64,000 nt of DNA, from positions 27,616-91,615 of the forward strand of contig JABFGJ010000014.1 of assembly GCA_013112545.1 (NCBI GenBank), given 5' to 3'. Position 1 is the first letter of the stretch. Each line of letters opens with the position of its first letter. The notes beneath the pieces were generated by a model. It searched no databases, was not told the origin of the DNA, and worked only from the letters and a program-made list of their open reading frames with translations. The stretch is from Bacteroidota bacterium (GTDB lineage: Bacteria > Bacteroidota > Bacteroidia > Flavobacteriales_E > Vicingaceae). This document shows positions 1,510-10,989 of this stretch, in pieces. Position numbers and translations under genes: made by a program.

Positions 1510-4500
1510 TTAATTTTTAATTAGTTTCTTGACTATAATTTCATCTTCTGTTCGAATTTTAACAAGATAAATACCTTCAGAAAGCCCTGTCAAATCAATT
1601 TCATAATTCGAATTAGAAATGGCTAAGTTTCTTTTTGACCAAACTCGTTTTCCTTCCATCGATTGTATTTGAATATCTGCGTTTATGACAGAATTTCCAG
1701 AAAACTTAATATTCACTCGTTCATTAGTTGGATTAGGATACAATTCAAATTGTTTTGCCAATATGGGTTCTTCTATTCCAACAAAACAACTATCAGAAAT
1801 TGTAACATTAATTTCAGGTGAAATGGTTACGCATCCAAAATTACTCGTTACAGTTACCTTATACTTATATGTACTGTCTTTTTCAAGTTTTAATGGATTT
1901 ATACCAATTGTTTGTAATTTGCTAGAATCTTTATATCCATTAGGGCCCCACATTCTCCATAAATAATCATAACCAAAACCAGCTCCTGCGTTTAAGACTC
2001 TATTGGTGTCTTGGCAAAGGGTATCTTTAATCGCTCCTAATTCAACTATTGGGTAAGGATTCACCACTGCATAAACAGCACTACGTCCTAAGCTAGTACA
2101 ACTATCAATTACGCCTTCTAGCCAGAAAGTATCTGTAACACTGAAATTATCAGTATGCGTAAAAGGTGCATTAGTTGTAACTTTAAAAGGAGTGTCATCT
2201 GTTTCATTGTGATACCAATTTACTGCTTTCAAGTTATATACTGGCGCAGCATAAGCCTCAACAGTCATAGGGCCTCCTCCACATATAGTATCATGTATTG
2301 GGTCTGGGATTTTAACAACCGTCACATTTACTAAAACAGAATCGGAAACAACATCGGATCCACATATTCTAACTCTATACATTGCTGTAGTATCTGGTTG
2401 AACTGTGTAATTGGCAGCATCAGAACCAAAGCCAAATTCAGGTAACCAATATGAAGTTCCCCCAGGGCCATAATACTTTCTTTCCCATTTAGGCGCTCCA
2501 AAGAAATTTGATGCGGTTAATTTCACAATAGTACCGTTACAAATAGAATTATTGTCAACTACAACGTTTCCACCTGCAATTTGAGTTGTTATGTTTTTAC
2601 TTAGGTCATCATTATTGCTAACAGAATCTCTAGGAGAGGACGTGTGAACATTAAAAGTATAAGTTGCCCCAACATCACTCATATCAAAAGTTGAACTTCC
2701 GCTTGCAGAATTATTTACCCAAACAACTAAAGAAGAATCACTTGGAAATGGTGTTTTTGTACCCCCTACAAGATTGAAAAATATATTTGTATTAATGTTT
2801 CTAAACATTGTAGCGTGTTGTACACCATTTTTTAAGATATCTACAGTAACCAATACACTATCAAATGTAAAATCTAAAGCATTTGCTCCATAATTTAACA
2901 ATTTAACATGAACACTTTGAGTGTCTGAATAACAACTGAAATTATTATCTCCTGGAAGAACTAATTCAGTAGGCCCAACATCGTATTTCGATAAATCATA
3001 TAAAAATAAATCATCAATGGCCATGTTGCTTGCCGTTCCGTCTCCACGAACACTTCTAAATCGAAATTTAGCATATTGACCAGCAAAAGCCTGTAAATCT
3101 ATAGATGCTTTTTTCCAAGGACTTGCATTGTTAATTTGTTGTTCTCCGAAAATAGTATCAACTGGCACCCATCCTTTATCTGCATTTATGTCAACATAAA
3201 GTTCGCCCATATCTGCACCAAACATATGATACCAATAGCGAAGAGATGGCTTGTTCAATTGCGACATGTCGAAACAAGGCGTTTCAAGAATAGCAACTTC
3301 TCCAGCTTTTCCAACTGCCGAATTTGTAACAAAATACCTTCCCTGATTATTTCCTCTAGTGTGGTCTTTAGCTGGCCCAGTAGAACCTGCTCTATCCATT
3401 CCGCACTTAATTCTCCATTGATAGGTTTTATTTTCTCGTTTAAACCCATTGTTATAAATAGGACCTGCCGCATTACAAGGAATAGTTTCAAATCCATCTA
3501 TATGTGGAAATTGAATTGGAGCCCTATGTATTACTTTATAATCTGTTATTTTATTATCAACAAGATCTAAATCTCCATTCAATATCAGTTCAGCTGTAAT
3601 GTTATACTCTTTGTAATATGACATATTCACAGGAATAGGAACATTATATGTGTATAATTTTCCAGGAGCCCATGCTGGTGGAGTTGCTCCAGGATAAGCC
3701 CAAACTGTAGAATCTATTAATAAACCACTGTTTGCACCTCCAATGTTTGAAGTATCAATTTTTATTCGAACTTGTAATGAATCAATATTATTACTTCCGA
3801 GATTCTTCATTCGAACACGAATTGTTTCGGCAGTAGAATAAAAACATTGCTCTTGAATTGGGCGTAGAATACGCTCCATCTGTGCTTGATTAGGCGGAGG
3901 TGGAACCATACAGATATCATCAAGTGAATATGTAGCACCTGTTCTATAAGCTCTAAATCTCACATTTACAAAGTTTCCTGTATAATTCGCCAAGCTAATT
4001 CTTTTTAACTTCCAAGGTGAACTTGAATTTTGCTGTGGCTGACCTTTAATCGAATCAATTCTGTTTTGCCACAAATTACCATCAAAAAGATCAATATACA
4101 TCGTGTTATTTTGAGCCGACCCACCATATACATGATACCAGAATTCAAGGTTGGCAACTGCTACTGTAGTTAAATCAAAACAAGGAGAAGTATATATTGC
4201 GATATTCCCTGGGTCTCCATTTGTTGGATTTACAGTCATATACCTTGTTGGACCTGTTGGGGTGTGGTCGTTAGTTGGACCAGGTGAGACATTGGAAGTA
4301 TATTCCCAAGAAAATGCACCTTGATTTGTAAACCAATTGTTAGAAAATTTTCCACCCAACAAGTCTTCACCGGCATCTCCAATGTTATTTGTTAGGTTAC
4401 TATAGTCTTCACAGCTTGGAAATAAAATTGTTTCATTTATTACAGTTTGAAATAAAGTATCGTTGTTTTTATTAGAATCTCCAGGTAAATCAGCCCAAAT

Positions 4501-7500
4501 CTTAAAATTATAGCGACCTGGCGCAGACATATTTACACGATTAAGATTCATACAATAAGTAAAAGGAGCACCTGGTAGAATTGAAATAGCAGATTTAGAT
4601 TCAAAAACAGGAGCACTGCCATTAACACTATAGCCAACTGTAAGGCTTGTAATGCTCTGAGTTCCAAAATTCTCTACAACAACACAAATCAATTCATTTG
4701 GTGTTAAATCACATCCAGATTCAGGAGAGATTAATGAGTCCATTTTAGCATCTTGTGGTAATGGCTCGTAAATCAATATATCATCAATAGCCATGTCACC
4801 TTCAAAACCATTTCCTCTTATTGCTCTAAACCTAATTGATATTTCCTGACCTACAAATTGACCTAAAGAAACTGTTCTTTCTTTCCAAGGGTCAGTAGGG
4901 CTAGTATGGGTTTCACCAGGTATAAAATTAATGTTGTTAATCCAGTTTCCAGAGCCATTTTGAACATCTACAAAAAGATTTCCCATTTGCGAACCATATT
5001 TATGGTACCAGAAATTTAAAATTGCCCCATTAACATTGGTTAAATTAATACAAGGTAAAATTAACTCAGCCGGCCCTCCTGAATTCGATGCTTCGGTGTA
5101 AACATACATACCGTTTCCAGTTGTGTGATCTCCTGCAGGACCTGTATTTAATGAACTTGTAGAGCTTCCAGATCCTCCAGAACAGGTCCCTGATTGGACT
5201 TGCCAACCATAACCAGTGCTAGAAGTAACATACCAGCCTCCTGTATATACATCCCCAGTTGCAGTACCGCTACAACTTCCGTCGGTAAACGAATCAAAAT
5301 TATCTGAAAAACTTAATGTTTTTGTTTGGTTGGTAACAAACTCAATTAAGGTATCGTTCCCGTAATTGGAATCACCTGCTAAACTTGTCCAAGTTTTAAC
5401 TTTATAAGTTCTATTTGGAATTGATAAATCCGCTGTACCAACAAAATTATGATTAGCATTACCACCCAATGGTAAGGCAACGGCTAATGTTTCTGATACA
5501 ACAGGTCTATTATCTATTTGAAAGTTAACTTGAACTGAATTTGCAGAAATTGGTGAGGTTCCAAAATTTCCTACCTTTATACTAACTGGAGTTGTAGTTG
5601 ATAAACCACATGCATTTCCAGGGGCGTTTAAGTTTAGCAATTCAGCATCTTGAGGTAGCGGTTCATAAACAATAACATCATCAATTGCCATATCTCCTGC
5701 ACAGCAACCTTGACTTATAGCTCTAAATCTTACTTTAATACGTTTCCCTGCGTATGCAGATAAACTTATATTTACTTGCGTATATGGGCTTGTCCCCCCT
5801 GTTTGAGGCTTAGCTGAAATGGTTGAAACAGCGTTCGTCCATGAGACACCATCATATATATCTACAAATAAACTTCCCATTTGAGTTCCATAACGATGAT
5901 ACCAAAAGATTAAATTTGCTCCCTGAACTGCACCTAAATCCAAACATGGAGACTCTAGTGTTGCAACGTCTCCCGTTGAACCCGAAGATGCTTCTGTGTA
6001 CATAAAATACCCAGTCCCTGAGGTATGATCAGCATCAGGTCCAGTTGATGAAGATCTATTTTGTGTTCCTTCCCCAACTCTCCATGTATATGAGTTTGAA
6101 TTATTTGAATTTCTAGTCCACCCACCACTAATCGCATCGTTTGTGTTAGAAAATGTAGTACCAACAGTAAATCCATCAAAGTCTTCATTAAAAGGTGTTA
6201 ACTTGATAGTGCTTAATGTATTCACCACCGTTTGACTAAGAATACTATCATTAACATTAAATACATCATTTGCAGCTGTACCCCATACATCTACATTATA
6301 ATTTTTAATTGCACTAAAATTATAAGGAGTGGTAAACGTAAAAAGTTTAGTTGTATTAGGGGCAATAGTAGTTGTAAAGGTTTCGGTAACAGCAGCACCA
6401 TTATCAACACGGAATCCTATTACTGGGTTTACAATAGGATTTGCTCCTTTGTTTTCTACTTCAACTATTATATTTTCGATTCCAAACCCGCAAAGTGGTT
6501 GCCCTGCAGCAGAAGGAAAAACTAAGTTCCGCAAACTTAAATCATTTGCTTGTGGTTCTCTTAAAGAAATATTATCGATACCTACACCTTCTAAATTGGT
6601 TGAACCATCTGAACTAAAAACAAAACGCAATTTCACTTGAGATTGGCCAGCTAGTCCAGTAAGTATATTTTCTACAGCAACCCAAGTATTTTTAACCCCT
6701 TGCCAAGTTTTTGTAGCTGTACTATTATACCAGTTTGTAGGATTTCCTGCTGCTAAAACCTTAGTCCAAGTAAGTCCATTATCTATAGAAGATTCCATCC
6801 AAAAGCGATCATAAGGAGCCTCTGTTTGGTGTATGAATGCAAAGTTTAAAATTGGGTCTCCAATTAATGTAGAGAAATTATAACAAGGAGAAGTTAAATA
6901 AGAAAGCTCTGAATTGTTGTAAGGCCCAGTTAAGTTAGTCACAAAAGCTTTCTGTCCACTATAAGCGCTATTAATGATACCGTTGTTTGGTGTGCCGTGT
7001 TGCCAAGAAGCATTTGTACCAGAAACAGTCCATCCACCATTGCTTGCTTCAAAATCTTGAAAATAAGGCGTAGTATATAATTGCTCGTTTTCTACTATTC
7101 TTAACGCTGTATCATTTGAATGATTTCCGTCTGCAGCATAAATAGTATAAGCTCTTATATTATAAACACCTACTGTAGAAAGGTTAGCATTAGTTGTAAA
7201 GGTATAAACCAAAGAATCACCTCCTGCAATTGTTGCAGAAATGTTTTCAGAAACTGGTGTACCGTTATTTAAGGTATAGGCCACATTAAAATTAGTAGCT
7301 GGTAAGGAACCGATGTTTTTAATAACAGCGGTTATCGTCTCAGAATTTGTAAGACCACAACCTGAAAAAGGACTTGTTAATCTTGAAACTTGAAGATCGT
7401 TTGCTAAAGGGGAAGAGATTTTAATATTATCTAAAGCAGCATACCAACCCCAATCGTTACCGTCGAAATATCTAAATCTAACTTTGCACGCTGCATTGGC

Positions 7501-7986
7501 ATAAGCCCCAATATTAATAGAAGCGTGTGGAAAACCAGAAACACATGCCCCAAGATAGTTTCCGCAATTATCAACTACTACAGAATAAACTAAATGCCAA
7601 GAAGTGCCATCAAATACTTCTACAATTAAGCTATCATTTGCTGGCCCATATTGTCTAAAGTTAAAATCAAATTCTAAATTGGTAACGAGTGCGCCTGCAT
7701 TGTTGAAAGCAGGAGTAACTAATTCCGCAAAGTCATTTGTTGAACTTCCCAAGTGTTTACTATCGTCAAAATAGGCCATTGCCGTGCCATCAATATTGTT
7801 ATTTCCAGCATGATCAACCGAGCCATCTAGACCAAATTCCCAAACATGTGTACCAGTTACGGCATTGTTTGACCAACCGACTGGCAGGGCTGCACCATTA
7901 AAATTCTCATTCACATACACCGTTTGGGCGTAGGTAGAAAGGGCAAAAGACGTAATAAGGGATATAAACAGTAGTACTTTTTTCAT
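1510..7986 (-). CDS. Giant T9SS-secreted multidomain protein with six MAM-like/CARDB-like modules
   Basis: About 2158 residues. The start was placed at ATG 7986 because the signal peptide MKKVLLFISLITSFALSTYAQ begins there; an in-frame ATG at 8010 would add eight non-signal residues. Six modules of about 300 residues follow. Each has a MAM/jelly-roll-like domain (hallmarks FWYHxYGxxMG, VRFRA, AIDD) and then a CARDB-like domain opened by a short Cys-Gly-Leu type motif (for example CGLTNSE, CGLSTTT). After the sixth module come Ig/PKD-like segments. The last ~75 residues (LYPNPTNERVNIKFSG... to IVKKLIKN) form a type A sorting domain recognised by the type IX secretion system. The protein is therefore expected on the cell surface, possibly for adhesion or polymer binding. 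Its paralogue at 15220-19581 has the same module order. No catalytic domain is visible. Confidence 0.9.
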   Translation of the reverse strand: MKKVLLFISLITSFALSTYAQTVYVNENFNGAALPVGWSNNAVTGTHVWEFGLDGSVDHAGNNNIDGTAMAYFDDSKHLGSSTNDFAELVTPAFNNAGALVTNLEFDFNFRQYGPANDSLIVEVFDGTSWHLVYSVVVDNCGNYLGACVSGFPHASINIGAYANAACKVRFRYFDGNDWGWYAALDNIKISSPLANDLQVSRLTSPFSGCGLTNSETITAVIKNIGSLPATNFNVAYTLNNGTPVSENISATIAGGDSLVYTFTTNANLSTVGVYNIRAYTIYAADGNHSNDTALRIVENEQLYTTPYFQDFEASNGGWTVSGTNASWQHGTPNNGIINSAYSGQKAFVTNLTGPYNNSELSYLTSPCYNFSTLIGDPILNFAFIHQTEAPYDRFWMESSIDNGLTWTKVLAAGNPTNWYNSTATKTWQGVKNTWVAVENILTGLAGQSQVKLRFVFSSDGSTNLEGVGIDNISLREPQANDLSLRNLVFPSAAGQPLCGFGIENIIVEVENKGANPIVNPVIGFRVDNGAAVTETFTTTIAPNTTKLFTFTTPYNFSAIKNYNVDVWGTAANDVFNVNDSILSQTVVNTLSTIKLTPFNEDFDGFTVGTTFSNTNDAISGGWTRNSNNSNSYTWRVGEGTQNRSSSTGPDADHTSGTGYFMYTEASSGSTGDVATLESPCLDLGAVQGANLIFWYHRYGTQMGSLFVDIYDGVSWTNAVSTISAKPQTGGTSPYTQVNISLSAYAGKRIKVRFRAISQGCCAGDMAIDDVIVYEPLPQDAELLNLNAPGNACGLSTTTPVSIKVGNFGTSPISANSVQVNFQIDNRPVVSETLAVALPLGGNANHNFVGTADLSIPNRTYKVKTWTSLAGDSNYGNDTLIEFVTNQTKTLSFSDNFDSFTDGSCSGTATGDVYTGGWYVTSSTGYGWQVQSGTCSGGSGSSTSSLNTGPAGDHTTGNGMYVYTEASNSGGPAELILPCINLTNVNGAILNFWYHKYGSQMGNLFVDVQNGSGNWINNINFIPGETHTSPTDPWKERTVSLGQFVGQEISIRFRAIRGNGFEGDMAIDDILIYEPLPQDAKMDSLISPESGCDLTPNELICVVVENFGTQSITSLTVGYSVNGSAPVFESKSAISILPGAPFTYCMNLNRVNMSAPGRYNFKIWADLPGDSNKNNDTLFQTVINETILFPSCEDYSNLTNNIGDAGEDLLGGKFSNNWFTNQGAFSWEYTSNVSPGPTNDHTPTGPTRYMTVNPTNGDPGNIAIYTSPCFDLTTVAVANLEFWYHVYGGSAQNNTMYIDLFDGNLWQNRIDSIKGQPQQNSSSPWKLKRISLANYTGNFVNVRFRAYRTGATYSLDDICMVPPPPNQAQMERILRPIQEQCFYSTAETIRVRMKNLGSNNIDSLQVRIKIDTSNIGGANSGLLIDSTVWAYPGATPPAWAPGKLYTYNVPIPVNMSYYKEYNITAELILNGDLDLVDNKITDYKVIHRAPIQFPHIDGFETIPCNAAGPIYNNGFKRENKTYQWRIKCGMDRAGSTGPAKDHTRGNNQGRYFVTNSAVGKAGEVAILETPCFDMSQLNKPSLRYWYHMFGADMGELYVDINADKGWVPVDTIFGEQQINNASPWKKASIDLQAFAGQYAKFRFRSVRGDGTASNMAIDDLFLYDLSKYDVGPTELVLPGDNNFSCYSDTQSVHVKLLNYGANALDFTFDSVLVTVDILKNGVQHATMFRNINTNIFFNLVGGTKTPFPSDSSLVVWVNNSASGSSTFDMSDVGATYTFNVHTSSPRDSVSNNDDLSKNITTQIAGGNVVVDNNSICNGTIVKLTASNFFGAPKWERKYYGPGGTSYWLPEFGFGSDAANYTVQPDTTAMYRVRICGSDVVSDSVLVNVTVVKIPDPIHDTICGGGPMTVEAYAAPVYNLKAVNWYHNETDDTPFKVTTNAPFTHTDNFSVTDTFWLEGVIDSCTSLGRSAVYAVVNPYPIVELGAIKDTLCQDTNRVLNAGAGFGYDYLWRMWGPNGYKDSSKLQTIGINPLKLEKDSTYKYKVTVTSNFGCVTISPEINVTISDSCFVGIEEPILAKQFELYPNPTNERVNIKFSGNSVINADIQIQSMEGKRVWSKRNLAISNSNYEIDLTGLSEGIYLVKIRTEDEIIVKKLIKN

Positions 7987-8086
7987 AGTAGATTGCATAA
8001 AAAAATTCAAGTTCGAAAGTTAATAAATTTTAACTTTATAATTCGCTCTTTTCTTGACGTAATAAAAAGAGAAAAAGTTGCAAATA

Positions 8087-8131: not shown

Positions 8132-9088
8132 TTAATGAGCTCCTATTTCTGTTAAATAACGTTCAGCATCTAGAGCAGCCATACAACCAGTCCCTGCAGC
8201 TGTAACAGCCTGACGATAAACCTTGTCTGCGGCATCGCCACTAGCAAAAACGCCTGGAATATTAGTTTTAGAGGTTCCAGGAATTACCTTTAAATAACCC
8301 ACTTCATCCATTTCTAACCAACCTTTAAATATATCAGTATTTGGTTTATGGCCAATGGCTACAAAAAATCCTGTAACATCTAATTTTATTTCTTCATTGG
8401 TTTTGTTGTTGTATGCTAAAACTCCTTCAACAGCATCTTTACCAAGAATTTCTTTTGTTTCATGATTATAAAGCACTTCAATGTTAGGAGAATTTAATAC
8501 ACGATCGGTCATAATTTTGGACGCTCTAAATTCATCTCTTCTGACCAGCATGTAAACTTTGTTGCAAAGTTTTGATAAATATGTTGCTTCTTCTGCTGCC
8601 GTATCCCCTGCTCCAACTATTGCCACATCTTGACCTTTATAAAAAAAGCCGTCACAAACTGCACAAGCACTAACTCCAAAACCATTTAATCGCTCTTCAG
8701 ATTCTATTCCCAACCATTTTGCAGCTGCGCCTGTAGATATAATAACTGCATCAGCTGTAATTTCTTTTTTGTCATCAACCCACACTTTATGAACAGGGCC
8801 TGTAAAGTCCACTTTAGTTACTAAACCAAATCTCACATCGGTGCCAAATCGTTCCGCTTGTTTTTGAAAATCCTGCATCATGGCTGGACCATTAATCCCA
8901 TCGGGATAGCCTGGGTAATTTTCAACATCGTTGGTAATGGTTAATTGTCCACCTGGCTGTAAACCTTGATACATTACAGGAGACATATCAGCTCTAGCAG
9001 CATATATGGCTGCTGTATATCCAGCAGGCCCAGAGCCAATGATTAAGCATTTTACATGTTCGATCTCTTGTTTATTTTTTTCTGACAT
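8132..9088 (-). CDS. trxB: Thioredoxin reductase
   Basis: 318 residues, the normal length for bacterial thioredoxin reductase, which passes electrons from NADPH through FAD to thioredoxin in the cytoplasm. The FAD-binding GSGPAG motif is at residues 18-23. The redox-active CAVC pair is at 142-145, inside the NADPH domain. The NADPH-binding GAGDTA is at 159-164, and a C-terminal ASGDAADKVYRQ segment makes the second FAD contact. A single gene, with a terminator after it and a TAnnTTTG element 20 bp upstream. It may support periplasmic thiol chemistry through the DsbD-type protein at 19607-22114, although that link is inference. Confidence 0.97.
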   Translation of the reverse strand: MSEKNKQEIEHVKCLIIGSGPAGYTAAIYAARADMSPVMYQGLQPGGQLTITNDVENYPGYPDGINGPAMMQDFQKQAERFGTDVRFGLVTKVDFTGPVHKVWVDDKKEITADAVIISTGAAAKWLGIESEERLNGFGVSACAVCDGFFYKGQDVAIVGAGDTAAEEATYLSKLCNKVYMLVRRDEFRASKIMTDRVLNSPNIEVLYNHETKEILGKDAVEGVLAYNNKTNEEIKLDVTGFFVAIGHKPNTDIFKGWLEMDEVGYLKVIPGTSKTNIPGVFASGDAADKVYRQAVTAAGTGCMAALDAERYLTEIGAH

Positions 9089-9107
9089 ATTCTAAAAATT
9101 TGGATTG

Positions 9108-9115
9108 CAAAGGTA
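9108..9115 (-). promoter_or_regulatory. -7 promoter element of trxB
   Basis: On the minus strand TACCTTTG, an exact match to the Bacteroidota TAnnTTTG element, 20 bp upstream of the trxB ATG. No good TTTG -33 partner was found. Confidence 0.45.
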
Positions 9116-9243
9116 TTGATAAGCTATCTAAAAAATACCATTTTATATTCAGATTTTTAAGCCTTTTTTCGTTTAAGTATTTTGCATTAATTGCTTGAAG
9201 GAATATATGTAGATTCACTTAATAAAACCCAAAATAGTTTATT

Positions 9244-9338
9244 CGGGATGTCACGCTGATGCGTTATAAATAGCTATCGATTTTAGTGCGCGCGTCTGAG
9301 GGGCGCAAGAGAGTCACGCCAAAGCGTGATCTTCCCGA
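9244..9338 (+). pseudogene. tRNA-Pro chimera A with palindromic hairpins
   Basis: Begins CGGGATGT like the 5' acceptor strand of the intact tRNA at 9969. It keeps a slightly diverged anticodon arm (GCGCGTCTGAGGGGCGC) and ends CCCGA like the 3' acceptor strand. The D-arm is replaced by TCACGCTGATGCG plus an AT-rich stretch. The T-arm is replaced by the perfect hairpin TCACGC-CAAA-GCGTGA (9314-9329). The left palindrome has decayed (GCGTTA instead of GCGTGA). It cannot be a normal tRNA because it has no TTCGAAT loop and no GG-containing D-loop. Confidence 0.8.
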
Positions 9339-9349
9339 CAATCCATACT

Positions 9350-9586
9350 ATGGAATATTGGACTTACATATTGTATAGTGAAACTCTAAATAAGTTTTAT
9401 ACCGGGCAAACAAACAACTTAGATGCTAGAATTGAAAGACATAATCTTGCTCTTGTTAAAAGCACAAAAAAAGGAATTCCATGGAAGCTAATTTACTCTA
9501 CAAAACAAAGTTCTAGGACAGAAGCAATCAAGCTAGAAACAAAAATTAAAAAAAGAGGTGCAAAACGCTTTTTAGAAGATCTATAA
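9350..9586 (+). CDS. Small GIY-YIG domain nuclease, copy A
   Basis: 78 residues if started at ATG 9350. An in-frame GTG at 9326 lies inside the palindrome and would add eight residues (MIFPTIHT), but the family normally starts at M-x-Y/W-x-Y-I-L, so ATG is preferred. It is a stand-alone GIY-YIG domain of the YhbQ/COG2827 type. The degenerate GIY strand is TYIL (5-8), the YIG strand is FYTGQT (16-21), the conserved arginine is R27 (ARIERH) and the likely metal-binding glutamate is E63 (LETKIKK). These proteins are metal-dependent DNA endonucleases or their relatives; the true substrate is unknown. It differs from copy B at one residue (K41 here, N41 there). It sits directly after a tRNA-derived chimera, which suggests it belongs to a mobile or repeat-maintaining unit. 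Confidence 0.88.
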   Translation: MEYWTYILYSETLNKFYTGQTNNLDARIERHNLALVKSTKKGIPWKLIYSTKQSSRTEAIKLETKIKKRGAKRFLEDL

Positions 9587-9605
9587 ACTTAATTTGCAGC
9601 CTATT

Positions 9606-9700
9606 CGGGATGTCACGCTAATGCGTGATAAATAGCTATCGATTTTAGTGTGCGCGTCTGGGGGGCGCGAGAGCGTCACGCCAAAGCGTGATCTTCCCGA
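9606..9700 (+). pseudogene. tRNA-Pro chimera B with two palindromic hairpins
   Basis: Same plan as chimera A but better preserved. The 5' CGGGATGT, then the hairpin TCACGC-TAAT-GCGTGA (9613-9628), an AT-rich linker, and then about 25 nt identical to the anticodon arm of the intact tRNA, including its GGG anticodon loop. After this come the hairpin TCACGC-CAAA-GCGTGA (9676-9691) and a TCCCGA end. The two palindromes stand exactly where a tRNA has its D- and T-arms, so the RNA could still fold as a four-armed structure with a 5-bp closing stem. Confidence 0.82.
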
Positions 9701-9711
9701 CAATCCATACT

Positions 9712-9948
9712 ATGGAATATTGGACTTACATATTGTATAGCGAAACTTTAAATAAGTTTTATACTGGGCAAACAAACAACTTAGATGCTAGAATTGAAAG
9801 ACATAATCTTGCTCTTGTTAAAAGCACAAAAAACGGAATTCCATGGAAGCTAATTTACTCTACAAAACAAAGTTCTAGGACAGAAGCAATCAAGCTAGAA
9901 ACAAAAATTAAAAAAAGAGGTGCAAAACGCTTTTTAGAAGATCTATAA
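9712..9948 (+). CDS. Small GIY-YIG domain nuclease, copy B
   Basis: 78 residues from ATG 9712, with the same motifs as copy A (TYIL, FYTGQT, R27, E63). It differs by K41N and a few synonymous changes. The stop codon is 20 bp before the intact tRNA-Pro, so a transcript entering from upstream could run through nuclease and tRNA together. Near-identity of the two proteins, while the first upstream chimera has begun to decay, suggests either recent duplication or selection on the protein. No other mobility gene is close by. Confidence 0.88.
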   Translation: MEYWTYILYSETLNKFYTGQTNNLDARIERHNLALVKSTKNGIPWKLIYSTKQSSRTEAIKLETKIKKRGAKRFLEDL

Positions 9949-9968
9949 ACTTAATTTTGCAGCCTATT

Positions 9969-10043
9969 CGGGATGTAGCTTAGTCCGGTTAAAGTGCGCG
10001 TCTGGGGGGCGCGAGAGCGGTGGTTCGAATCCACTCATCCCGA
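9969..10043 (+). tRNA. tRNA-Pro (anticodon GGG)
   Basis: 75-nt cloverleaf. The acceptor CGGGATG pairs perfectly with CATCCCG, and A is the discriminator base. D-arm is GCTT/AAGT with a GG-containing loop. The anticodon stem is CGCGT/GCGCG with loop CTGGGGG, so the anticodon is GGG. The T-arm is GGTGG-TTCGAAT-CCACT. CCA is not encoded; CTTT follows. It is the only intact tRNA in the window and probably the source of the two chimeras upstream. Confidence 0.95.
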
Positions 10044-10068
10044 CTTTATTAACCAAAACAACTATTAT

Positions 10069-10989
10069 TTAACGTATGCTTGCTGTAAAGACACCATTCG
10101 TTACGTTAATTGTCCCACCTGACACTAAATTAGCTCCAGTAAACGAGAATGTACCTTCTATTAATTTAGCTGAATTGTCAACTCTTGAAATAGTCAATGT
10201 TCCACTTCCCGAACCTATGTTTGAACCGTAAGTATCAGGAGTACCTGAAGTCAAATTTTCAAAATATGAGATATAATTTGTATTATCTAATGTATAAGTC
10301 TGAACAGTAAGGGGACTTCCGAGCTGGATAGTTATCGATTTGGTTGCACCAGTATTTGTAGCAGTAATAACTGTTTGCCCTCCTGTACTTACTGCAACAC
10401 AAGCATAAGACTGGAAGTTTTGCCCCCCAATAGTTGCAGTCATATTTCCAAAATTGGCATTCGAATTTTCTTGTACAAGAACGACATTATTAAACTTTCC
10501 ATTAGTAATACGTTTCGTTTGTTGTGTTGATAGTAATTTAGCTGTTCCAGAAAAAGTACCAGATACAGTTTTTGAACTACTATTATAATTAGTAATATCA
10601 ATTGTAGCATCTACTGGACTATTAAAGGTTGAAGAGTATGTACCATTTGATTCTGATAAATAGACACCATTTTTACCATCAACTGCACCTAAATAAGTAC
10701 CAGGAGTAACATTTGTAGTTGATATCCAAAGACTATCATTTGCAGAGTATGCAACAACTCCCATTACATTTCCTATTCTACGTCCTCTAAAAGAAACTAC
10801 ATTAAATGTATTCCCATCTACTTTAGCGCTAAAGGAAGCATTTGAATTAACGATATCAGAAACATTCTGCTTTACAGTAGGGTTAAAATACTCATTAATA
10901 GTGTATGATTCCTCTTTGGCACAAGACGTTAATGTCAATGAGATAACAAGGATACTGAATAATTCAAAAATTTTGTGTTTTAATTTCAT
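10069..10989 (-). CDS. Lipoprotein with two DUF6252-like domains
   Basis: 306 residues. It has a lipoprotein signal (MKLKHKIFELFSILVISLTLTSC, lipobox LTSC with Cys23). Two similar domains follow, at about residues 50-170 and 180-306. Both open with an F-x-A-x-(V/I)-x-G-x-x-F pattern (SFSAKVDGNTF, NMTATIGGQNF) and close with a strand pair such as VSGTFSGTA...ITNGKFNNV or IEGTFSFTG...VTNGVF. That layout resembles the DUF6252 family of Bacteroidota lipoproteins, whose function is unknown. It would be anchored to a membrane, most likely the outer membrane. A complete promoter lies upstream, so the gene is probably transcribed alone. Confidence 0.75.
   Translation of the reverse strand: MKLKHKIFELFSILVISLTLTSCAKEESYTINEYFNPTVKQNVSDIVNSNASFSAKVDGNTFNVVSFRGRRIGNVMGVVAYSANDSLWISTTNVTPGTYLGAVDGKNGVYLSESNGTYSSTFNSPVDATIDITNYNSSSKTVSGTFSGTAKLLSTQQTKRITNGKFNNVVLVQENSNANFGNMTATIGGQNFQSYACVAVSTGGQTVITATNTGATKSITIQLGSPLTVQTYTLDNTNYISYFENLTSGTPDTYGSNIGSGSGTLTISRVDNSAKLIEGTFSFTGANLVSGGTINVTNGVFTASIR

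Follow-up and report, generated by a model that had tools for sequence, protein, structure and literature searches.

Tandem repeats of broken tRNA genes, lineage-specific palindromes and a small GIY-YIG gene in Bacteroidota: a candidate selfish repeat

Why should a lone tRNA-Pro(GGG) gene in a Bacteroidota genome be preceded by two nearly identical units, each made of a disfigured copy of a tRNA-Pro and a gene for a bare GIY-YIG domain? The arrangement lies in a 64-kb stretch of DNA, called the window here, and the positions of its features are collected in Table 1. We describe the units, follow their relatives through other genomes and weigh the explanations that the evidence brings into play.

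Two repeat units beside a single tRNA-Pro gene

The original prediction was of two tRNA-Pro chimeras, with TCACGC-N4-GCGTGA hairpins for D and T arms, each leading into a 78-codon GIY-YIG gene. The sequence and the PF01541 matches bear this out, with a mismatch in one of the four hairpins. The units measure 362 nt each and agree in 352 of 363 aligned columns, and the direct repeat of this period is 97% identical over 300 nt. The 5' end of the tRNA, TCGGGATG, is found at 9243, 9605 and 9968, and the 3' end of the chimera, CTTCCCGA, at 9331 and 9693; the anticodon-arm segment forms a 31-nt direct-repeat family, whose other two members match the copy at 9645 with identities of 87% and 94%. The gene that serves as syntenic anchor is called trxB-like from its sequence rather than by a family search.

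Table 1. Positions, strands and supporting matches of the features at the locus
Feature	Position	Strand	Evidence
trxB-like gene, syntenic anchor, outside the unit	8132..9088	-	
Repeat unit 1: chimeric tRNA-Pro copy, GIY-YIG gene and linker	9240..9601	+	direct repeat
Chimeric tRNA-Pro copy 1: acceptor ends and anticodon arm retained, D and T arms substituted	9243..9338	+	
Palindrome at D-arm position, unit 1, one mismatch	9251..9266	.	
Palindrome TCACGC-CAAA-GCGTGA at T-arm position, unit 1, perfect	9314..9329	.	
GIY-YIG gene 1, 78 aa, ATG start	9350..9586	+	PF01541, E 1.6e-15
Repeat unit 2, same make-up as unit 1	9602..9963	+	direct repeat
Chimeric tRNA-Pro copy 2, same make-up as copy 1	9605..9700	+	
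Palindrome TCACGC-TAAT-GCGTGA at D-arm position, unit 2, perfect	9613..9628	.	
Palindrome TCACGC-N4-GCGTGA at T-arm position, unit 2, perfect	9676..9691	.	
GIY-YIG gene 2, 78 aa, ATG start, one residue different from gene 1	9712..9948	+	PF01541, E 1.9e-15
Intact tRNA-Pro(GGG)	9969..10044	+	ARAGORN; Rfam RF00005, 60.2 bits

ARAGORN calls neither chimera a tRNA, its sole call there being 9969-10044, and no other tRNA-Pro(GGG) appears in the 32 source-genome tRNAs, out of 34, that were read. Across 9000-10200 at E ≤ 1, Rfam likewise matches the intact tRNA and neither chimera, a result on which a group I or group II intron or another known RNA was rejected and which sets the locus apart from mobile introns of those groups. 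Each chimera folds as RNA into a single long hairpin (about -42 kcal/mol; z -4.0 and -3.8), and by these energies and z-scores the long imperfect inverted repeat that the outer arms had been said to form is real. Perfect palindromes of the TCACGC-N4-GCGTGA type are confined within the window to the three in the units, a concentration that exceeds chance. The whole 3.27-Mb genome holds four exact sites, the sole one outside the units lying near a tRNA-Trp, and 400 kb contains three palindromes of the core type; a genome-wide REP family was rejected on this copy number.

A GIY-YIG family linked to tRNA genes

PF01541 is the only Pfam family matched by the 78-residue proteins, and NCBIfam returned no family for them. 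In one set of proteins, 19 of whose 20 members were drawn from tRNA loci or their arrays, Y6, Y17, G19, R27, E63 and K67 are invariant; in a second set Y17, R27, E63 and K67 are invariant, with Y6 and G19 almost so. We take these residues to be catalytic. Median dN/dS is 0.17, with values below 0.5 in 30 of 31 non-overlapping pairs and one further pair undefined, and on these comparisons of coding sequence the protein is shown to be under purifying selection. An AlphaFold2 model gives a compact domain (pLDDT 96, pTM 0.83) whose closest fold is the UPF0213 structure 1zg2 (E 4.6e-4), also the best PDB match by sequence (E 9e-4), so that the predicted protein shares the single-domain fold of the small UPF0213-type proteins, which presumably correspond to COG2827 (UPF0213 being the name in PDB titles). 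Likeness to the branched-DNA nuclease Slx1 is weak by Foldseek (E 4e-3 to 2e-2, TM about 0.7). A second domain is absent, and specificity would therefore reside in the bare domain or its multimer. The window protein had no match in 50,697 phage records, and the search of viral contigs with two query proteins yielded no confirmed relative; a phage or viral carrier was rejected on these records and contigs. Searched by text, the survey of the GIY-YIG superfamily in PMC1564403 nowhere mentions COG2827, UPF0213 or YhbQ, and the sources consulted record neither a function nor a link to tRNA for these small proteins.

A protein-guided scan of named genomes returned 73 loci, by record title from Bacteroidota and close kin (Balneolaceae and Melioribacteraceae among them). 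A same-strand tRNA-Pro lies within 350 nt at 49 of them and any tRNA at 55, many of the others stopping at a contig edge; where the tRNA-Pro follows the matched stretch it does so after 0-15 nt in 27 of 33 cases, and where it precedes it the distance is 17-101 nt in 17 of 19. Among the loci read, many have a chimera for their upstream tRNA copy as well: Aquimarina, Arenibacter, Flavivirga and Hyunsoonleella carry TCACGC..GCGTGA in place of its T arm, and at others the D or the anticodon arm is substituted. The pairing of chimera and GIY-YIG gene, for which confinement to this one locus had been considered, thus occurs elsewhere. Within the source genome, four more loci have GIY-YIG genes that directly adjoin a tRNA gene, one at tRNA-Arg, one at tRNA-Asn and two at tRNA-Met, and three of the four also contain broken tRNA copies together with other palindromes.

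The wider census of small GIY-YIG genes covered the same family (46 genomes, and 32 genomes at least 90% complete whose remaining matches were fetched) and the same class (247 genomes, 74 of them positive at E ≤ 1e-22, from which 30 loci and 60 further regions were taken among the best matches listed). It counts loci fetched rather than all matches, with residual duplicate arrays possible after sequence dereplication, and comprises 265 dereplicated arrays, 194 high-scoring (at least 66 bits) and 71 low-scoring; the 350-nt and 66-bit limits, like the palindrome classes used below, were set after the data had been seen. An intact same-strand tRNA stands within 350 nt in 154 of the 194 high-scoring arrays (opposite strand in 2) and a tRNA fragment in 32 of the other 40, so that the predicted linkage to tRNA genes holds for 186 of 194, with no tRNA trace in the remaining 8. 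Low-scoring arrays show a same-strand tRNA in 11 of 71 and a fragment in 3 of the other 60 (14/71 in total); five of those 11, in the family of the source organism, are interrupted genes. When high-scoring arrays with at least 600 nt on both sides are considered, 115 of 134 have a complete tRNA within 350 nt and 19 have none.

Fifteen amino-acid types are linked (Pro, Met, Val, Asn, Ala, Ser, Asp, His, Leu, Arg, Phe, Thr, Lys, Gln and Glu, some of them once), and the arrangement is accordingly not particular to tRNA-Pro, as had been supposed; "isotype" is used here for the closest tRNA on the same strand, and the broken copies may descend from another tRNA. By our own reading, the Met targets appear to carry the GGG/CCC anticodon stem of the initiator tRNA. 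On a FastTree phylogeny of 243 proteins, linked versus unlinked status takes 2 changes (n = 202; least of 200 shuffles, 41), isotype 37 changes (n = 149; least of the shuffles, 87) or, once loci of the 73-locus scan are left out, 31 (n = 101; least, 62), and palindrome class 17 (n = 101, unclassed palindromes excluded; least, 44). Judged on this tree, the nuclease lineage is shown to be faithful to tRNA isotype and to palindrome class.

The trxB-like anchor allowed the locus itself to be compared among related genomes: 30 of 39 matching loci were fetched, and 14 have tRNA-Pro(GGG) nearby. GIY-YIG sequence is present in five of the 14, namely in the source genome (G000), in G040 and G043, and in damaged form in G013 and G034. 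G029 has a solo chimera with the gene absent, and both gene and chimera are absent from the other eight, among which G030 stops 25 nt past the tRNA, the tRNA is inverted in G038, G031 and G032, and G031 retains a palindrome remnant. A fifteenth locus, in G036 (L124), has a chimera with D and T arms both substituted, its acceptor ends still matching by eye, and a GIY-YIG gene of which the contig holds only the beginning before it stops. The order in G043 is a tRNA 5' part with a palindrome, the complete tRNA, the GIY-YIG gene, and then the same palindrome with a tRNA 3' part; in its congener G044 the tRNA is plain and agrees at 75 of 75 nt with the complete tRNA of G043. Anchored in this way, the locus is shown to exist in occupied, relic and empty states among related genomes.

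Broken tRNA copies, palindromes and arrays without a nuclease gene

Partial copies of the intact tRNA accompany it in 146 of the 165 arrays (both score groups) that have one. When the intact tRNA stands before the gene, 129 of 207 partial copies retain the 3' end and 52 the 5' end; when it stands after the gene, 40 of 74 retain the 5' end and 18 the 3' end, a polarity that suggests duplication or insertion within the tRNA. The same counts bear on whether the chimera might act as RNA (as a leader, a processing signal, a decoy for tRNA-attacking toxins or a guide for the nuclease), its arms having been exchanged to keep a fold without tRNA function. Both window chimeras fold strongly and lie on the strand of the gene and close to it, and the G036 chimera, with matching acceptor ends and both arms substituted, would suit such a role. 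However, the retained tRNA parts differ and include 3' as well as 5' halves, the gene comes after the intact tRNA in 102 of the 154 high-scoring arrays that have one, where broken copies mostly retain the 3' end, and arrays without a GIY-YIG gene occur; we therefore hold a function as RNA to be very improbable.

Internal replacements are strongly palindromic: of 112 unique cases, 95 have a hairpin whose stem is 5 bp or longer, where shuffles predict 11.2, and 88 one of 6 bp or longer, where they predict 2.5, compared with 17% and 7%, respectively, of random windows of the same loci. Since whole-arm swaps make up only 19 of the 88 palindromic replacements, the others covering part of an arm or running across or between arms, "hairpin for hairpin" is a loose description; nor is replacement restricted to D and T arms, as the original prediction had it, the anticodon arm or part of an arm being often substituted (tRNAs with long variable arms were excluded from position counts). 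Pro arrays have CACGC in 39 of 55 cases and Met arrays have TCCG in 20 of 27, YCCCG accounts for most Asn and Ala palindromes, Val is mixed, and the palindromes of the seven Leu arrays and of most Arg arrays fall outside all four classes. The inner stems at Met vary together with their partners (TCCGCC/GGCGGA, TCCGTC/GACGGA, TCCGGC/GCCGGA, TCCGTT/AACGGA), although this covariation is no independent test because the stems were selected as palindromes.

Where the copies break brings in the main rival to the reading that we prefer. The phage enzyme SegB is a GIY-YIG nuclease that, according to PMC13096335, cuts inside tRNA genes at the motif RAWTSGAAC and drives tandem amplification; by our own reading, the complement of this motif appears to match the T-loop. 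A nuclease of this type would cut the intact cognate tRNA gene, for instance in the T arm, repair would yield tandem segmental duplication or homing, and the palindrome would be a mere scar or a block to re-cutting of surplus copies. With the phage precedent go the findings that 36 of 63 copies with a 5' end stop within the T arm, that the replaced interval at tRNA-Met begins at positions 37-39 in 18 of 24 listed palindromic cases, and that nuclease lineage follows isotype, Pro-clade genes being located at GGG, TGG and CGG tRNA-Pro genes. Outside tRNA-Met, however, the interval is not constant (33-43 in 4 of 11 tRNA-Asn cases), and the intact tRNA beside the nuclease in G043 is that of its empty relative G044, so that under this model the target would stay cuttable. 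Nor does cutting of the intact gene explain the match between palindrome stem and lineage or the sharing of a palindrome with an array that lacks the nuclease gene, and we regard it as rather unlikely. Arrays, isotype fidelity and a surviving tRNA are predicted in common by this model and by cutting at the palindrome.

Repeats also mark the surroundings of these genes. A direct repeat is common to both flanks of the gene in 105 of 141 linked arrays and, for low-scoring GIY-YIG genes without a tRNA, in 33 of 52, versus 12 of 250 control stretches, the controls coming from the source genome only. A control for flank duplication built on 16 tRNAs was unusable, with a duplicated flank at 10 of them; many source-genome tRNAs themselves bear arrays. 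Near the tRNAs of that genome, GC-rich non-terminator palindromes give 39 rows, 26 of them distinct once overlapping neighbourhoods are removed, in less than 47.3 kb, and the comparison is 32 in 400 kb. Small GIY-YIG genes outside the tRNA-linked clade lie within other sorts of local palindromic repeat. There may be a wider system that pairs GIY-YIG genes with palindromes, of which the tRNA-linked clade would be a single branch.

At least two GIY-YIG genes are present in 43 of the 194 high-scoring arrays, the largest being ten units at a tRNA-Met (L145, period 457 nt) and eight at another (L147), and the tRNA-Asn array L146 has five units, the last one shortened. Other arrays have no GIY-YIG gene: the source genome has four palindrome-bearing copies at tRNA-Pro(TGG), nine 37-nt copies at tRNA-Ala(GGC) and three copies at tRNA-Gly. 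Its further repeated tRNA pieces (Gln, His, Leu and Ser(GGA)) do not all include a palindrome, a search of the gene-less arrays at Gln, His and Ser(GGA) finding none.

Five genomes were compared for tandem broken tRNA copies, which occur at 17 of 96 tRNAs where the genome has linked GIY-YIG genes (three genomes) and at 0 of 61 where it has none (two genomes); this is a correlation, in which the tRNAs of one genome are not independent and 13 of the 17 come from the source genome. By genome, tRNAs with a tandem partial copy number 13 of 32 in G000 (34 tRNAs in total, four having no locus of their own and two of these being read inside other loci), 3 of 33 in G002, 1 of 31 in G044, 0 of 29 in G042 and 0 of 32 in G045, and of these 4, 2 and 1 lie beside a GIY-YIG gene in G000, G002 and G044, respectively. 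A stricter threshold for partial copies, which misses arrays with short pieces, gives 10 of 32 in G000, 0 of 29 in G042 and 1 of 31 in G044. Ten of the 17 affected tRNAs have no GIY-YIG gene beside them. The nuclease could be a passenger, tRNA neighbourhoods being duplicated by ordinary recombination or replication slippage and the gene simply being carried with them at sites that tolerate insertions and offer expression from tRNA promoters. The 9 of 13 source-genome arrays without an adjoining GIY-YIG gene fit this well, as does the orientation of linked genes, almost all of which point in the direction of the tRNA; it is nonetheless an improbable account, given the absence of arrays from the two genomes without linked genes, the fidelity to isotype and palindrome class, the purifying selection on the protein, and the repeats that likewise flank small GIY-YIG genes with no tRNA.

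The gene-less arrays also touch on a possible failing of the original prediction, namely that the hairpins might be a repeat present without the nuclease. Hairpin-bearing tRNA copies with no neighbouring gene do exist, but among the five genomes only in those with tRNA-linked GIY-YIG genes. One palindrome connects the two kinds of array directly: the 14-mer TTCGCCGCGGCGAA occurs at exactly four places in the 3.27-Mb genome, one of them in a tRNA-Met unit that adjoins a GIY-YIG gene, the other three in the gene-less tRNA-Gly array, and its reversed control has no site in the whole genome. This sharing gives the strongest hint that palindrome and nuclease belong together and that arrays may be served in trans, an argument built on one exact palindrome in one genome together with the five-genome comparison; plain recombination could also place an identical palindrome at two tRNA genes.

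A possible mechanism and its place among known systems

We favour the reading, at about even odds (a probability of roughly 0.5), that the predicted nuclease acts at the palindrome of its own lineage and that repair multiplies the tRNA-derived repeats. Cutting at the palindrome is preferred because the intact tRNA beside the nuclease is unaltered and the palindrome is bound to the lineage. On this account the units are tandem copies of a repeat put together from the neighbouring tRNA-Pro gene, palindromes particular to the lineage and the GIY-YIG gene, the encoded protein would be an active DNA nuclease, and its site would be the palindrome, which might take the form of an extruded hairpin or cruciform. 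Breaks there would start duplications, with repair copying the neighbouring repeats, and arrays without a GIY-YIG gene would be acted on in trans. A palindrome in place of an arm, or part of one, would both silence the surplus tRNA copy and make it a substrate, and the complete tRNA would survive through selection because each anticodon read occurs once in the genome (CAT three times). The arrangement is likely a selfish repeat multiplied by its nuclease.

A more far-reaching version is doubtful. Each GIY-YIG lineage would own a palindrome and place it, acting both in cis and in trans, in the hairpin arms of tRNA genes that have been duplicated. A natural break-and-rescue element would in this way parasitise tRNA genes that are present once and are often essential, destroying the copy it invades and bringing a complete tRNA along as the replacement; enzymes of this family with other palindromes as their targets would drive the scattered REP-type repeats of Bacteroidota.

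How does this compare with what has been described? As in REP/RAYT systems (TnpAREP, REPtrons; PMC8266576), a small gene for a predicted DNA-acting enzyme lies among short lineage-specific palindromes, and solo palindromes without the gene also occur. Unlike there, the enzyme is GIY-YIG by Pfam and predicted fold rather than a Y1/HUH transposase, and the repeats are tRNA-derived tandem units near tRNA genes, few per genome. The idea of a tRNA-born, REP/RAYT-like unit with its own nuclease stands in part: recurrence in Bacteroidota, a lineage-bound palindrome and a palindrome common to a gene-less array speak for it, and REP-like copy number is lacking. The likeness to SegB extends to a GIY-YIG gene beside tRNA genes and to a tRNA/nuclease segment in tandem (PMC13096335 and the T4 review PMC2988022), as well as to a GIY-YIG domain with conserved, presumably catalytic, residues encoded in a tRNA region in nearly all high-scoring arrays. 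The present genes differ from SegB in being chromosomal, in encoding a bare 78-residue domain, in fidelity to isotype (PMC13096335 reports no isotype preference for SegB) and in the broken tRNA copies with lineage-specific palindromes. Integrative elements at tRNA attachment sites, whose integration yields tRNA fragments (PMC9897764), resemble the units in having an insert flanked by one complete and one partial tRNA copy; they differ in that the 362-nt unit has neither recombinase nor cargo, the GIY-YIG gene being the only gene seen.

The open-access literature, with subscription papers and preprints outside the search, yielded no description of chromosomal tRNA-linked GIY-YIG genes, in agreement with the original prediction, which knew of no system of this design. 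We regard the system as one that would work like REP/RAYT and SegB while being a member of neither, because the enzyme and copy number that define REP/RAYT are absent and the genes are not phage-borne. Such a role would be given to a family whose members, among the best 120 of 389 homologs, are labelled, if at all, "GIY-YIG nuclease family protein", "GIY-YIG domain-containing", "putative endonuclease" or "hypothetical protein". If the reading is true, it would represent a second, unrelated solution to the REP/RAYT design, living on tRNA genes, and would account for the odd palindromes that broken tRNA copies of these genomes contain. Its enzymes and their palindromes form dozens of natural pairs in which one could ask by what means a bare 78-residue domain locates its DNA.

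Partial tRNA copies and palindromes elsewhere in the source genome

Downstream of one tRNA-Ala(GGC) gene in the source genome, the 3' end of the tRNA is repeated in tandem as nine copies of 37 nt, in which ACCACGCCCAAAGCGTGGT stands in place of the T arm, and this array (L345) is without a GIY-YIG gene. Partial tRNA-Ala copies also accompany a palindrome with the CACGC core, ACCACGCTATGGCGTGGT, around tRNA-Ile and tRNA-Ala (L329). The palindrome that replaces the D and T arms in the chimeric tRNA-Pro copies, TCACGC-N4-GCGTGA, was found in exact form only once in this genome beyond the window (L011), at a single intergenic site near tRNA-Trp where it is placed like a terminator.

Features of the source genome and their locations
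Feature	Location	Strand	Setting
Array of broken tRNA-Ala copies (L345)	C1, ~525.9 kb		3' of tRNA-Ala(GGC)
ACCACGCTATGGCGTGGT (L329)	C17		Vicinity of tRNA-Ile and tRNA-Ala
Exact TCACGC-N4-GCGTGA (L011)	C15:84585		Between tRNA-Trp and the following gene
GIY-YIG gene without tRNA (L007)	C13:18321-18545		Within tandem repeats
Gene for 2166-aa repetitive, secreted-looking protein	Window 1510-8010	-	

The large repetitive protein of the window

The C-terminus of the 2166-aa protein may resemble a type IX secretion sorting domain.

GIY-YIG genes in a possibly interrupted array and in other repeats

In another genome (G001, contig C20), about 1.4 kb separates a shortened GIY-YIG copy near tRNA-Pro(TGG) from two more copies (L149), and this intervening stretch is possibly a mobile insertion. 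The repeats around the tRNA-free gene L007 are up to ~370 nt long and contain GTCATTGCGAGGAGG; the motif GTCATTGCGA was absent from 400 kb of sampled background of the same genome. Five further small GIY-YIG genes not linked to tRNA (L187, L188, L201, L209 and L232) are surrounded by other REP-type palindromic repeat arrays, exemplified by GTCATTGCGAGG..CGAAGCAATC and TTCGAGAGCCTCAGTGAACAG. Among low-scoring GIY-YIG genes (<66 bits, a cut-off set after the data had been seen), direct repeats lie on both sides of the gene in 33 of the 52 with sufficient flank.
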